NCBI RefSeq assembly: GCF_002208115.1
Contig: NZ_CP020946.1
Location: forward strand, 620,001-684,000
DNA: 64,000 nucleotides
Direction of reading: 5' to 3'
Source: Bdellovibrio bacteriovorus
GTDB lineage: Bacteria; Bdellovibrionota; Bdellovibrionia; Bdellovibrionales; Bdellovibrionaceae
Shown here: positions 18,909 to 60,128 of the stretch, in pieces
How positions within the stretch are numbered: the first letter of the stretch is position 1
Layout: the number at the start of each line of letters is the position of its first letter
Program-made: the position numbers and the translations under genes
The notes under the pieces: generated by a model
What the model was told of the DNA's origin: nothing
Databases searched by the model: none
The model's input: the letters and a program-made list of their open reading frames with translations, nothing else

Positions 18909-19586
18909 TTAGATGAAATCGCCTTTACTGCGATTTACTGCCGCCACCGGAGCGGGACCGCCCAGATCCAGATACTTGTGGAAGAGCTGGTAGATCTCTT
19001 CAACCACGGCTGTATCGTGGATGGCGGTTGGATTATCGATCGCCATCGTATTGGTCAGGCCGATGAAGGCGTTAACCATGATGTAAGAGATCTTTTCCAT
19101 GTCGCGGCCCGGGATCTGTGGAAGGTTGTAGCGGACAACCTCCTGGAAGAAACGGATTGTCTCGGACATATAAGCAGCTTCGGCAACATAGTACTGAATG
19201 GTGGTCAGTTTAGAGCGAAGTTCCGAGTTGCGACGAGTGGTTTCAACAGCCAGTTCAATCATGCCTTTCACACGCTGCTCGGGTGGCAGTGGGGAAATAG
19301 CGCGCATTTTTTCGCTGAAGATGCGTTTGTCTTCTTCAAGGATGTTTTTCACAACCGCTTGTACAACAGACTCTTTGTTACCAAAGAACTGATACAGTGA
19401 ACCGATGCTGACACCGGCTTCTTTGGCGATTTTGTCAGTCGTGATGGAGTAGAAACCTTCACTAACCAGAAGGCGAGAGCATGCATCCAGGATTGTTGCT
19501 ACTGTCTGGCGAGAACGTTCTTGTGTGGGAGCCTTTACAATAATCTTAGTTTTCTTCGTTTTTTCTTCAGATGACATCATGTTCAC
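18909..19586 (-). CDS. TetR-family transcriptional regulator
   Basis: An N-terminal helix-turn-helix (ATILDACSRLLVSEGFYSITTDKIAKEAGVSIGSLYQFFGNKESVV) is the typical TetR DNA-binding domain, followed by a variable helical ligand domain. The ligand is unknown. The start is uncertain. GTG 19586 has AAAGGG six bases upstream, and a weak promoter (TTGCCC, 17 bases, TATTCT) would begin transcription near 19615, which disfavours the ATG at 19616. A Lys-rich N-tail (EEKTKKTKIIVKAP) precedes the HTH. The gene is monocistronic, and no target is obvious nearby. Confidence 0.88.
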   Translation of the reverse strand: MNMMSSEEKTKKTKIIVKAPTQERSRQTVATILDACSRLLVSEGFYSITTDKIAKEAGVSIGSLYQFFGNKESVVQAVVKNILEEDKRIFSEKMRAISPLPPEQRVKGMIELAVETTRRNSELRSKLTTIQYYVAEAAYMSETIRFFQEVVRYNLPQIPGRDMEKISYIMVNAFIGLTNTMAIDNPTAIHDTAVVEEIYQLFHKYLDLGGPAPVAAVNRSKGDFI

Positions 19587-19711
19587 GGAAAACCCTTTCT
19601 GAGGACCTAGTTCCATGAGGACAGAATAGGATTGAGTGGACGCGGGGGCAAGTCTGGTTTTTTGCAAACCTGTAATGTTTGTAAATAAATAATGAAGAAA
19701 AACGCGAGGTT

Positions 19712-20515
19712 TTATTCGCTGTAGGCTTGAGCGTCCTGAAGAACCTCAGGACCCCACATCACAGTGTCGCCGGAGCTGATGTAGTTCTGAAGAAAGTTCG
19801 ACAGATCCGAAGCGCCTTCGTTCAGCCAATACATCACACAATCAGAATTGGTTGAATGGGCTCCATGAGCCGTGTCCTGATGAGCCGTGACCATCGGAAC
19901 GCCGTTGTTCACAAATCCCAGGGCGTGACCCATTTCATGCACCAGCGTGCTTTGCTCAACGTATTTCGGGACTATGCCGTTGGGGTTTGCCCCCGAGCTG
20001 CGCACGACATCCTTAAAGATCGCGATGATGGGTGTGCCGCCAAGGCTGACACCAATGACTCCGGTTTCAGGGCCGGATCCGGTGCTGTAGTTTCCGTCCA
20101 GGAAATAAAGATAGAAACGGGATTCAGCACTGGTGGGAAGCTGACTGTGATACTGCTTGTGCAGATTGACGATATCGATGCCGGTCCATTCCGTTTTTCC
20201 CTGCGCCGGGATTGCCGTCATTTCAGCCAGAGTTTTTGGAACAGCGATGGCCGGGGCAGAGCTGCGGTACTGAAAGATCGCCGTCAGGTTGTCTTCCAGA
20301 ATCTGCCAGTAGTTCATTCCGCCGGCTGTGGTGCCGGTGAAAGGCTCGGACCCTGTTTCATAATAAATCTCCATCGAGATTTTTGCCGTGCTTTTGAAAT
20401 AGATGCGGGAGTTTGAATAAGGGAAGCTGGATTCAGAACCAGAGCTGCCACCGCTGCAACCAGCGGCCAGAAAAACACAGATTGTAACAAAAGATCCCAG
20501 CAACGTCTTAACCAC
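19712..20515 (-). CDS. zinc metalloprotease lipoprotein (metzincin-like)
   Basis: A lipoprotein with signal MVKTLLGSFVTICVFLAAGC and a Ser/Gly-rich linker. It carries a zinc motif HEMGHALGFVNNG, with two His ligands and the general base Glu, and a downstream CVMYW that resembles a Met-turn. The third metzincin ligand position after HExxHxxG is Asn, so the third ligand is probably one of the His residues in VTAHQDTAHGAH. The N-terminal half is a beta-rich region of unknown role. It is likely surface-attached and acts outside the cell. Confidence 0.82.
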   Translation of the reverse strand: MVKTLLGSFVTICVFLAAGCSGGSSGSESSFPYSNSRIYFKSTAKISMEIYYETGSEPFTGTTAGGMNYWQILEDNLTAIFQYRSSAPAIAVPKTLAEMTAIPAQGKTEWTGIDIVNLHKQYHSQLPTSAESRFYLYFLDGNYSTGSGPETGVIGVSLGGTPIIAIFKDVVRSSGANPNGIVPKYVEQSTLVHEMGHALGFVNNGVPMVTAHQDTAHGAHSTNSDCVMYWLNEGASDLSNFLQNYISSGDTVMWGPEVLQDAQAYSE

Positions 20516-20575: not shown

Positions 20576-21025
20576 TTACTGCAGTTCCTGCTCGCAATAA
20601 ACCTGGGCGCGCTCTTCATTGGCTGGATAGCTCATGGATTTGGCCAGTTTCTGGCATTGTTTCTTGGTGATCGTGCGGTTGTACTTGCGCAGGCACTCCC
20701 AACGGGCCTCATCGCCCGTATCCGGGAATTCCATCAGTTTGGTGATGGAGTGACATTCTTTTAGATTGGATTGCTGGCGCAGATCGTACAGGCACACCAG
20801 ACGGGCTTCTTCTGCGTTGGTGGAATACTCCATAGAGGACGCGACACCCAGGCACTGGGTCACGCTGATTTGGTTCTTTTTCTGCTTCAGGCATTTCAAG
20901 CGCAGATCATCGCGCTGATCCATGGCAAGTTTCGTGGACTTGGCCACATGGCAAAGTGGGGCGGCCTCCGCACGGAAAGCACCCAACCCAATAATCGCAG
21001 CTACAACCAACAAGAGCTTCATCAT
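20576..21025 (-). CDS. secreted protein made of four 33-residue Cys repeats
   Basis: After a signal peptide (MMKLLLVVAAIIGLGAFRAEA) the whole mature chain is four repeats of exactly 33 residues. Cys falls at 25, 58, 91 and 124 and again at 45, 78, 111 and 144, always 20 apart within a repeat. A typical unit reads C-x(6)-M-E-[YF], a short turn, then E-A-R-x-x-C. Two Cys per unit suggest one disulfide per repeat. I do not recognise the family. The same unit, in four copies, forms the C-terminus of the CHAT-like protein at 56634-58457. The function is unknown; it may be a small binding protein in the periplasm or outside the cell. Confidence 0.82.
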   Translation of the reverse strand: MMKLLLVVAAIIGLGAFRAEAAPLCHVAKSTKLAMDQRDDLRLKCLKQKKNQISVTQCLGVASSMEYSTNAEEARLVCLYDLRQQSNLKECHSITKLMEFPDTGDEARWECLRKYNRTITKKQCQKLAKSMSYPANEERAQVYCEQELQ

Positions 21026-21197
21026 GTTCGCACTCCAATAAGCACTGGTGTCCTAATCAGCAAGGTTCTGGCCAGATTTATATGCAAATAAGAGCGGTCT
21101 GAAATCAAATGACTGTCTCATAATTTGACAGTCGACATTCTTTGGAAGCGCCAGGCGTCCTTTAACAGGGCCTGACGCCGGGGCTGCGGGGCACAGC

Positions 21198-56633: not shown

Positions 56634-58457
56634 TCAATTTGCTATACGATTCATGCAATTCCAGTTGGCTTTGAAGCGGTTGCCTTGAATTTTCATTGAA
56701 GAGGCCAAAGCAAGACATTCGGACCGGCTCAATTGTTTTTGTTCAGACAATTTGGACCAGCAGTACCAACGAACATTGTCGGAACTCTCTACATCGGCAT
56801 TGCGATCGGCCGCTTCAAGACACGACCCCAGGTGGATATCGTGGTTAAATCGGGTCAAACAATTCCAGTCGACGCCGGTCACACTTTGTGTTTCAAAACG
56901 GCGGGCGAAAAGATGACATTTCAAAGGATTGTCAATCAGCGGTTCAAACTGGTTGTAACAATACCAGCGATAGCCATCGCGGGATTCAGCGTTGTCACCG
57001 GAAGCCGCTTTCTGCAAACATGTTTCCACCATTTGCGGCAGCATTTCTGTCGGGGCCTTCAGGCCGATGCTGTAGCTCATGTCCAGACGGTCGCGTTGTG
57101 GCCATTGGGCCGAGGCTTTCAGCAACTGACTGAAATCGTGGGAATACAAACGGCCCTTGAGCGCGCGCAAAGCTTCGCGACGAATCGGGGATTCGTTGCT
57201 GTACATCATCTCTTTCAGAAGGCCTTCGATGCCCATGTCATAGCTTCCGAAGCATTGGGACAGGCGCGGGATGAATTGCCATGCATCGGAAGTATATTGC
57301 AGCCAACTGGCTTTCAGCTCGGTGGTCTTCAGCAGATCCTTCATGGCGCAGAACTGGTCTGTCACGATAAAGTTCAAACCGTCCCCTAGTCGCTGACGGA
57401 TCAGGCGTTCCTGCTGTTCAGCTTTCACCATATCCGGGAGAAGTCCCAATTGCGCCTGCAGATCCAGGAATTGCATTTTCATTTTCAGTGGCAAAGAGCG
57501 CGCAGAGCCGATTTGCAGGAAGAAGTTTTCAAAGTTGCGGGTGGCTTCAGCCGAAGCACGCAAAGTGTCCTGCAGCAGCGCCATGAACAGCGGATTCTGG
57601 GTCGCTTCCAAAAGAGGTTCATAGTATTTCTTCAGATGCAGTTTCTTGGCCAGGAAATGGATGGCTTCGCGATTTTCGTTGATGCTTTCAGAATACGCGT
57701 TGCAGGTCAGGGCCTTGTAGTTTGGATCGGACTCGGTCTTGGGTGCGACGATGCGATAGCTCATCCCGGCAAAAAGCTGATTCAGCTTTTTTGTATCCGG
57801 GCCTTTGCTGAACAGAGTCTGTGCGCTGGTGTCGCGCAGGGCTTTCTTCAGCAGGGGGCCTGCGACTTTTCCCATGGGTCCGGTGCTGGTGAAACCATGC
57901 AGGCGCTCGACGTTGTTAAAGGCCGAAGAAAAGATCTGACTGATGCTCATGCCGTATTCGGAATAGCGGGAAAAAGCCACGCGTTCAGCAAGGTCACGGG
58001 GAAATCCGTTCTTGATCAGAACTTCCACGTACTCTTCAATCGAGCGTTTGTCCGGGGTTTTGCTGGAAAGGGTGTTGCAGCCCATCAGGAAGACGTCTTT
58101 GGGTTTGCTTAAAATCCCCGGGCAGGAGTTTTCGCAGCTCAGCCTTTCGATTTCCTTCAGATCCAGAGTGGTGCTGTTGCCTTCCCCAAAGAACACGCCC
58201 CCAAAGTGGCCGGAAATCAAAAGCACGTCACATTGAATGCCGGAGTTGCAGGCGTTTTGCAGCCAGCGGGGGTTCTTGCCTTCCGTGGGAACAAGCTCGG
58301 TGATCTCGACATCCTGGGAAGCGTAAAGCTGTCTCAACGCCTCTTTTTCGTCCGCGGAATTCAGGGTCATTGTGCAAATGCGTTTGGTGGCCGCTTCGAC
58401 AGAAGGGCTCCCAAGCATAACCAGCAGTCCAAGACAGAGCAGGGATTTCAGTTTCAT
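56634..58457 (-). CDS. secreted CHAT/caspase-like protein with C-terminal Cys repeats
   Basis: A 607-residue exported protein (signal peptide MKLKSLLCLGLLVMLGSPSVEA). Residues about 25-150 resemble the clan-CD caspase/CHAT fold: a core strand CDVLLISGHFGG with candidate catalytic His84, a strand-helix DLKEIERLSC, and DVFLMGCNTL with candidate catalytic Cys127. Residues 150-475 are helical and unfamiliar. The last 130 residues are four repeats of about 33-35 residues, each with two Cys 19-20 apart and ending R-W-Y-C or D/N-W-N-C. These are the same units as in the 149-aa protein at 20576-21025. Activity is inferred and untested. Confidence 0.72.
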   Translation of the reverse strand: MKLKSLLCLGLLVMLGSPSVEAATKRICTMTLNSADEKEALRQLYASQDVEITELVPTEGKNPRWLQNACNSGIQCDVLLISGHFGGVFFGEGNSTTLDLKEIERLSCENSCPGILSKPKDVFLMGCNTLSSKTPDKRSIEEYVEVLIKNGFPRDLAERVAFSRYSEYGMSISQIFSSAFNNVERLHGFTSTGPMGKVAGPLLKKALRDTSAQTLFSKGPDTKKLNQLFAGMSYRIVAPKTESDPNYKALTCNAYSESINENREAIHFLAKKLHLKKYYEPLLEATQNPLFMALLQDTLRASAEATRNFENFFLQIGSARSLPLKMKMQFLDLQAQLGLLPDMVKAEQQERLIRQRLGDGLNFIVTDQFCAMKDLLKTTELKASWLQYTSDAWQFIPRLSQCFGSYDMGIEGLLKEMMYSNESPIRREALRALKGRLYSHDFSQLLKASAQWPQRDRLDMSYSIGLKAPTEMLPQMVETCLQKAASGDNAESRDGYRWYCYNQFEPLIDNPLKCHLFARRFETQSVTGVDWNCLTRFNHDIHLGSCLEAADRNADVESSDNVRWYCWSKLSEQKQLSRSECLALASSMKIQGNRFKANWNCMNRIAN

Positions 58458-58552
58458 ACCCGCAAAAACTGCAAAGGGCTGTCCAGCGCCAGTTAAGAAT
58501 CAGGCAAGGAGGAGCGTCCATGGCTTGCGCATATGACAAAATGGGGAAGACG

Positions 58553-58598: not shown

Positions 58599-60128
58599 TC
58601 AGGCGGCTTTGCGACCTTCGACGACCGAGATCAGTTCCTGAACCATCGAATCCATCTGCTGGGATCGCTGGGCAAGCTCTTCAGCGGCCGAGGCACATTC
58701 ACCCGCGGCCGAGGCATTGTTCTGGGTCACACGATCCAGTTCATTGATGGACATGTTGATCGAGCTGACCCCCTGGGACTGCTCCGTGCTGGCGGTGGAG
58801 ATTTCAATATTCAACGCCGTCAGTTTTTCGATCTGCACCACGATTTCATTCAGCATCGTGCCGCTGGCCTGAACAACCTCGTGACCGCTTTCAATTTTGT
58901 GAACGCTGTCCTCGATCAGGGTGGCGATCTCTTTGGCGGACGTGGCACTTCTTTGTGCCAGTGCGCGCACGGCCTCCGCAACTACGGCGAAGCCTTTGCC
59001 TTGCTCTCCGGCGCGGGCCGCTTCCACTGCCGCATTCAGGGCCAGAAGATTGGTCTGGAAGGCGATATCGTCAATAACTGAGATGATCTCTTCGATCTTC
59101 TTGGAGCTCTTCGCAATGTCATCCATGGAAAGAATCAGCTTTTCGACCTCATCTTTGCCATGGCGGGCTTTGACCTGCGCGGTTTCAGCCAGTGAGCGGG
59201 CTTCGTTGGTGTGTCCGGCATTCAGCTTGATCATGCTCGACATTTCCTCGGTGGCCGAAGTCGTCTGTTCGATGGAGGCCGCGGCCGTCGTGGCGGCGCT
59301 GCTGAGGTCTTGAGAGGACTTGGAGATTTCAGAGCTGGCTTGGGCGACACTGGTGCCTGTTTCTTTCAGTTTCACCGCGATGCCGGAAAGGGCCTTCATT
59401 GGGCGGTTTAACACCACAAAGGCCAGGCCCATGGCAACAATCGACAGGCCCACGGCAACAAGCACGATGTACATGGTGGCATCGGTAGCTGCGGCTTTGA
59501 CTTTGTCTTTGCTTGAAATCACAGCGAAACCGCCATGCAGTTTACCGTCGGACCAGTCTTCCATGGGATAGCCCAGAATGTCCTTGCCGTTTTTCCAAGG
59601 GGACTGGGAAGGGGAGCCGTGGCAGTTCATGCACCCCTGACTGGATGAAAGGCGCACCGGACGGTATACGATCACGTGATTGTCGGTGGTTGCCGTGAGC
59701 TCTTCCAATTTTGGATCGGCCTCAAATTTTTTCAGAATGTCCATTTCTTCCTGAGTGGCGCGATTGTCCGAATTGCGCGGTTCACCCGAGAAAATGCGGA
59801 AAGTATAGCCTTCCTTTTCAGCGCCTTCAGCGCCCACTTTCATTGCGGCAAAGATGGGAACCTGCTTCAGGATGGCCATTTTGGATTCTTTGGAAAGATT
59901 GCCATCAGGATGATCCTCGATGGCCTTTTCGATGCTGGCTTTTAATCCACCCTGGGAAGCCACGTAAGAGCGCACGGCTTCCAGGCGGGAAAGGATCGCT
60001 TCTGATTTTTCGACCAGATGGGATTCGCCTTCGTGCGAGATGCGGGATGATGCCACGATCACAGCTGCGGTCGTGCAGATCACGCAAGCAGTGCCAATAC
60101 TGATCATAACTTTGGTGCTGAACTTCAC
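58599..60128 (-). CDS. chemoreceptor with c-type heme sensor domain (Tll0287-like)
   Basis: A 509-residue methyl-accepting protein. Span 1 lies at about 7-28; the periplasmic domain, of the DUF3365/Tll0287 kind, carries the heme c site C166-M-N-C-H170 and the following [23 protein letters not shown]. Span 2 at about 214-236 leads to the signalling hairpin with [43 protein letters not shown]. Covalent heme suggests redox or gas (O2, NO) sensing. Start is GTG 60128 after AGGTTT. A close paralogue lies at 61349-62887, on the other side of the UspA gene. Confidence 0.93.
   Translation of the reverse strand: MKFSTKVMISIGTACVICTTAAVIVASSRISHEGESHLVEKSEAILSRLEAVRSYVASQGGLKASIEKAIEDHPDGNLSKESKMAILKQVPIFAAMKVGAEGAEKEGYTFRIFSGEPRNSDNRATQEEMDILKKFEADPKLEELTATTDNHVIVYRPVRLSSSQGCMNCHGSPSQSPWKNGKDILGYPMEDWSDGKLHGGFAVISSKDKVKAAATDATMYIVLVAVGLSIVAMGLAFVVLNRPMKALSGIAVKLKETGTSVAQASSEISKSSQDLSSAATTAAASIEQTTSATEEMSSMIKLNAGHTNEARSLAETAQVKARHGKDEVEKLILSMDDIAKSSKKIEEIISVIDDIAFQTNLLALNAAVEAARAGEQGKGFAVVAEAVRALAQRSATSAKEIATLIEDSVHKIESGHEVVQASGTMLNEIVVQIEKLTALNIEISTASTEQSQGVSSINMSINELDRVTQNNASAAGECASAAEELAQRSQQMDSMVQELISVVEGRKAA

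Follow-up and report, generated by a model that had tools for sequence, protein, structure and literature searches.

The short gene at positions 20576..21025 (minus strand) of a 64,000-nucleotide window of the Bdellovibrio bacteriovorus chromosome (NZ_CP020946.1, 620,001 to 684,000; all positions given without a contig are those of this whole stretch) encodes a 149-residue protein, P0001, whose four cysteine-containing units are homologous to the C-terminal units of P0002, a 607-residue caspase/CHAT-like protein predicted to be exported (56634..58457, minus strand). Pairwise BLASTP between the two proteins gave an expectation value (E) of 2e-4, and genome searches with either protein reached orthologs of the other with E down to 3e-6 and 5.6e-7. 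A profile of 18 short-protein regions (A1) and a profile of 10 long-protein regions (A2) aligned over 125 columns with an E of 2.2e-9, all four units being in register. The original prediction that two distant genes have a module in common is borne out, since the two sets align significantly. We consider it reasonably probable that this module is a disulfide-stapled alpha-solenoid of Cx19C hairpins, and that it offers a stable platform for binding in either the oxidising envelope or the prey compartment.

The assignment of P0001 is based on its open reading frame (ORF), its cysteine positions and its orthologs. Residues 1-22 resemble a Sec signal peptide (AEA/A) when judged by eye. The cysteines occupy residues 25, 45, 58, 78, 91, 111, 124 and 144, and recomputing their spacings (20, 13, 20, 13, 20, 13 and 20) gave the period of exactly 33 residues in four units that had been claimed for this protein; if eight cysteines were scattered randomly over the 127-residue mature part, they would alternate exactly, with whatever spacing, with a probability of about 2e-8. 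All four units are read from the minus strand: unit 1 (Cys25-Cys45, 20891..20953), with helix B predicted at residues 35-48 and no predicted helix A; unit 2 (Cys58-Cys78, 20792..20854), with helices at 55-63 and 68-80; unit 3 (Cys91-Cys111, 20693..20755), with helices at 88-96 and 101-114; and unit 4 (Cys124-Cys144, 20594..20656), with helices at 121-129 and 134-147. Among the short-gene orthologs the Cx19C spacing is constant inside units 2-4 only, units 2 and 3 being joined by a linker of 11-13 residues and the cysteine distance in unit 1 being 19-21. The module of P0002 covers residues 480-601 (56655..57020, minus strand) and comprises four units (Cys480/500, 514/533, 546/566 and 581/601). 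Its eight cysteines are spaced by 20, 14, 19, 13, 20, 15 and 20 residues, which corresponds to distances of 20/19/20/20 within units and to periods of 34/32/35. The claim of four related units in P0002 holds, and that of an identical cysteine spacing had to be relaxed to an approximate one. In the 78 distinct family proteins that were parsed, about 290 units carried both cysteines; the modal unit was 33 residues long, the distance within the unit being 20 in 232 of the 290 and the distance between units 13 in 156 of about 212 gaps.

AlphaFold2 (AF2) models, built from alignments of 9 sequences for P0001 and 10 for the P0002 C-terminus, predicted helical hairpins in both proteins. The mean predicted local distance difference test score (pLDDT) was 88.7 for P0001, with 94-98 over most of the repeat region, and 88.4 for residues 465-607 of P0002. 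In units 2-4 of P0001 and units 3-4 of P0002 the cysteines fall on position 4 of helix A and position 11 of helix B; the exceptions are unit 2 of P0002 (position 9 of helix B) and the first units of P0001 (where helix A is missing) and of P0002 (position 6 of helix A). P0001 and the C-terminus of P0002 would thus be built from one repeat of about 33 residues, which we name the Cx19C hairpin: a loop would connect a short helix A, whose fourth residue is cysteine, to a longer helix B, whose eleventh residue is cysteine, and the hairpins would stack into a short alpha-solenoid. Of the disulfide-linked helical hairpin that had been anticipated, the hairpins are present in both models and the disulfides are deduced from the pattern of cysteine loss. 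Units lacking cysteine always lacked both (unit 3 of L139, where they are replaced by F and Y, and units 1 and 3 of L118), and no unit with a single cysteine was seen among the family units parsed. Because the cysteines are lost in within-unit pairs and the terminal ones are conserved, one disulfide per hairpin is favoured, and each hairpin probably has a bond of its own that closes it. Such bonds might be formed by machinery of the DsbA/VKOR type: the genome encodes DsbA homologs and a VKOR-type protein, including a 416-residue open frame that combines domains of the VKOR and DsbA types (G000:C1:1793653-1794807), and a VKOR-type disulfide pathway would be compatible with an oxidising envelope.

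Two other uses of the cysteines were weighed. In a divergent solenoid of the Sel1/TPR type, the helix B cysteine of one hairpin would pair with the helix A cysteine of the next, as in Hcp proteins. The model of P0001 would suit this arrangement, with the helix B cysteine placed 2-3 residues ahead of the end of its helix, and the cysteine of the following helix A at position 4. However, the loss of both cysteines in a single unit, as in L139 and L118, would orphan a cysteine in each neighbour, the terminal cysteines would stay unpaired yet are conserved, and neither Sel1 nor TPR was matched in Pfam; we regard pairing between hairpins as rather unlikely. The presence of two invariant cysteines per unit could also point to redox or metal chemistry instead of structure, but no CxxC motif or His/Asp ligand pattern is conserved alongside them, the proteins look exported and units that have lost both cysteines keep the rest of the repeat, which makes such a role highly improbable. 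A scaffold of individually stapled hairpins also has several observations against it. The argument from paired loss comes from three units in two proteins, and helix positions taken alone would also allow a helix B cysteine to lie near the next helix A cysteine, 13 residues away. The P0002 model was computed with an alignment of P0001 relatives, so that its agreement with P0001 is supportive but partly dependent on them. The genome search gave no hit for DsbB. Finally, several genomes have one architecture without the other, and the short protein need not partner P0002.

Searches of Pfam, NCBIfam, PHROGs, PADLOC and PDB sequences returned no family at a usable score, and no description of the module was found in literature searches. 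No catalogued repeat family being matched by these searches, the module is still without a name, as had been supposed. With E allowed up to 10, Pfam matched Sel1 to neither P0001 nor P0002, and Sel1 was not listed for sets of 12, 40 and 21 family members; likewise, no TPR family appeared among the Pfam matches of the two proteins and of these sets. DUF7645 (best E 0.0021, in 3 of 12 members, with a 19-residue match where the alignment was printed) was judged a chance match. At the level of structure, Foldseek gave no match at E <=0.001 in PDB and BFVD. The best VIA-align matches were designed repeat proteins (Z 10.4, root-mean-square deviation 3.2, 128 residues), values that ordinary helical repeats would reach through their arrangement alone, and a closer fold may exist. 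The module resembles TPR, HAT and designed helical repeats in generic alpha-hairpin stacking and differs from TPR in matching no TPR family. Its general architecture, an exported disulfide-stabilised alpha-solenoid of tandem helix-turn-helix units, is already known from the Sel1-like repeats (PF08238) of Helicobacter HcpB and HcpC, if the disulfides predicted here exist. Sel1-like repeats are 36-38 residues long and the disulfides of Hcp proteins lie between repeats (PMC3851747), whereas the present module has a 33-residue unit, a Cx19C spacing, probable pairing within the unit and no Pfam match. What appears to be new is the sequence family itself, with its 33-residue Cx19C unit, the probable staple within the hairpin and the link to a caspase/CHAT-like protein.

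As a pointer to distant relatives, the most useful finding, though not an established link, is a resemblance to DUF4476 (PF14771), of whose helical hairpins the repeat could be a cysteine-stapled offshoot. Several Foldseek matches in BFVD, from giant viruses, are annotated as DUF4476, the two best with a probability of 0.97-0.99 and TM scores of 0.46-0.52, but their E values were 0.15 or worse. Pfam DUF4476 gave weak matches below the gathering score (best E 0.018 in 2 of 12 members and 0.11 in 1 of 21), and P0001 itself did not match it. Two plasmid-borne DUF4476 proteins were found with a bacterial probe sequence, which matched Pfam DUF4476 with an E of 4.7e-18. On alignment to real DUF4476 proteins the QC/EC of the family fell on the DUF4476 QC/QV position, with a consistent register in two profile alignments, and by eye a similar Q-[CV]...F/M-x-F/Y motif was seen in small helical hairpins of both. 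In contrast, hhalign against a profile of three DUF4476 sequences was not significant (probability at most 2.2, E 0.022-0.14), a hidden Markov model of the family scored DUF4476 sequences no better than shuffles, DUF4476 lacks the paired cysteines, and the FxF spacing in a Bacteroides DUF4476 protein is 30-31 residues and not 33. Descent from DUF4476 is a possibility that we hold tentatively and consider less likely than not.

The N-terminal part of P0002 begins with a stretch that looks like a Sec signal peptide by eye and contains a conserved His84 (SGHFGG) and Cys127 (GCN), the two motifs being invariant in 12 of 12 diverse sequences (alignment A6). P0002 alone matched caspase-3 with an E of 0.0027, and a profile query matched caspase-2 with an E of 0.09, in an alignment that sets the motifs of the P0002 family on the SHG (His) and AC (Cys) motifs of caspase. 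The CHAT profile of Pfam was not matched by P0002 itself and gave an E of 0.048, below the cut-off, in one of the 12 members. Compared with caspase/CHAT proteins (peptidase C14, PF12770), P0002 has similar, aligned His and Cys motifs and differs in its sub-cut-off scores, its export signal and its C-terminal cysteine hairpins. The earlier label of CHAT-like is reasonable in view of motif conservation, while the database scores behind it are weak and lie under curated cut-offs; caspase/CHAT-like is the best name for this part of the protein, with a predicted activity. Caspase/CHAT-like paralogs without cysteine hairpins were also observed (L050 and L060 in G004, L057 in G010, L058 in G014 and L059 in G021), and the two open frames of G004 exceed 900 residues.

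In its own genome the module was found in no gene besides P0001 and P0002. The search of the phylum with a two-unit profile (A5) revealed the further cysteine-repeat proteins that had been expected, in 59 of 368 genomes and 12 of 181 genera, belonging to three families; a scan of 84,980 species genomes returned matches in Bdellovibrio and Bdellovibrionaceae only, but the pattern used was narrow and the module may also occur outside the phylum. Throughout the phylum the module either stands alone or ends an exported caspase/CHAT-like protein as its C-terminus. It has between 2 and 7 units: two within about 100 residues in L131 and L132, six in L130 and about seven in L129. A mobile or viral origin was rejected, as the plasmid search gave no match for P0001 and the viral-contig search no relative of the P0002 module. 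The short gene is present in all 24 Bdellovibrio genomes, and close pairs showed nonsynonymous divergence (dN) of 0.01-0.06 against synonymous divergence (dS) of 0.3-0.7; P0001 orthologs are under strong purifying selection. Because orthologous units are more alike across the genus (41-64% identity) than units inside one protein (11-36%), the units have kept their individual identity. Distinct units of this kind would fit specific surfaces rather than a spacer. The module occurs on the CHAT-like protein in about 16 of the 24 genomes, with four units in nine and three units in seven. We also considered that the short protein could be devoted to P0002 as its inhibitor or immunity partner, binding it by like-with-like stacking of hairpins. 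Both proteins carry the module, both look exported and a sigma54-like element lies upstream of both genes; however, the short gene is universal in the genus and the module-bearing CHAT-like gene is not, six f12 genomes (G027, G028, G039, G040, G045 and G124) show the long form only, and the two genes lie about 36 kb apart. Such a dedicated partnership seems unlikely to us.

Upstream of P0001 lies a sigma54-like -24/-12 element, CTGGCCAGAACCTTGC (21060..21075, minus strand), in which TTGC and a G eleven bases before the G of TTGC are invariant in 23 of 23 orthologs. A similar element, TGGACAGCCCTTTGCA, is located just upstream of P0002 (58470..58485, minus strand) and is conserved in the four-unit orthologs, all nine of which have GG-N10-GC with TTGC near the start codon. 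The genome contains an rpoN gene, which is bd0843 in strain HD100 (PMC11209729). Genome-wide, the single-site sigma54-like pattern was slightly enriched (110 matches, 77 in the control), and a Shine-Dalgarno-like stretch comes directly after the TTGC element in several orthologs of the short gene, a misfit with a sigma54 start at that site. These are conserved sequence elements and candidate promoters. It is a long shot that the hairpins, phylum-restricted and with one staple each, serve in recognition for an exported caspase-type protease of predation, with the universal short protein as its soluble regulator and both genes under sigma54-type promoters.

The region upstream of P0001 also contains a palindrome, CTGTC-N9-GACAG (21113..21131), that starts 67-68 bp before the TTGC element in 22 of 23 aligned orthologs; a twenty-fourth ortholog, L024, carries the same palindrome. 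It is likely to be a binding site for a regulator. Co-regulation of P0001 and P0002 through the palindrome was rejected, as what matched it upstream of P0002 proved to be an intrinsic-terminator stem (GGGTGTCTC...GAGACACCC TTTTTT). This terminator, GGGTGTCTCAAAACGAGACACCCTTTTTT (58495-58530), stands between P0002 and a chemoreceptor-like gene (58599-60128). A TetR-type regulator gene (18909..19667, minus strand) lies downstream of the short gene, an arrangement conserved in most Bdellovibrio genomes and also seen in genera g11 and g20. That the palindrome is the operator of this adjacent TetR is disfavoured because it is kept in several g17 genomes without a TetR neighbour, and this reading is further weakened by the failure to find it in g11 and g20, which have the neighbour. 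The 19-bp palindrome (CTGTCTCAAAGTTAGACAG in L128) is kept upstream of the short gene in L125, L128, L134, L185 and L187, which belong to another genus; as no TetR gene was found next to the short gene there, the regulator is probably encoded elsewhere. A like combination of palindrome and TTGC was seen at G000:C1:202978-203047 and G000:C1:16967-17035 (L203 and L201), followed by ORFs of 162 and 307 residues with signal-peptide-like starts. In the whole genome the combined pattern gave 16 matches and a control pattern 6, and a small regulon around it is possible. Between P0001 and the TetR gene there is a lipoprotein-like gene (19712-20515) whose HEMGH motif resembles that of zinc metalloproteases; among the genomes checked, it has this place in the present genome and in G001 only.

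All in all, we propose that the stacked Cx19C hairpins would most likely serve as a stable scaffold that binds proteins, whether in the periplasm, on the cell surface or in the prey compartment, which is rich in proteases. As part of P0002 the module may be the arm for recognition or docking in an exported caspase/CHAT-type enzyme, and the stand-alone protein could be an adaptor, a decoy or an inhibitor. As a simple natural scaffold, the regular Cx19C hairpin can be compared with Sel1/Hcp and designed helical repeats. The module represents an uncatalogued repeat family, kept under strong selection in every sampled Bdellovibrio genome and tied to an exported caspase/CHAT-like protein, and the short protein and its caspase/CHAT-like counterpart offer concrete targets for studying how the predator may act beyond its own cytoplasm.
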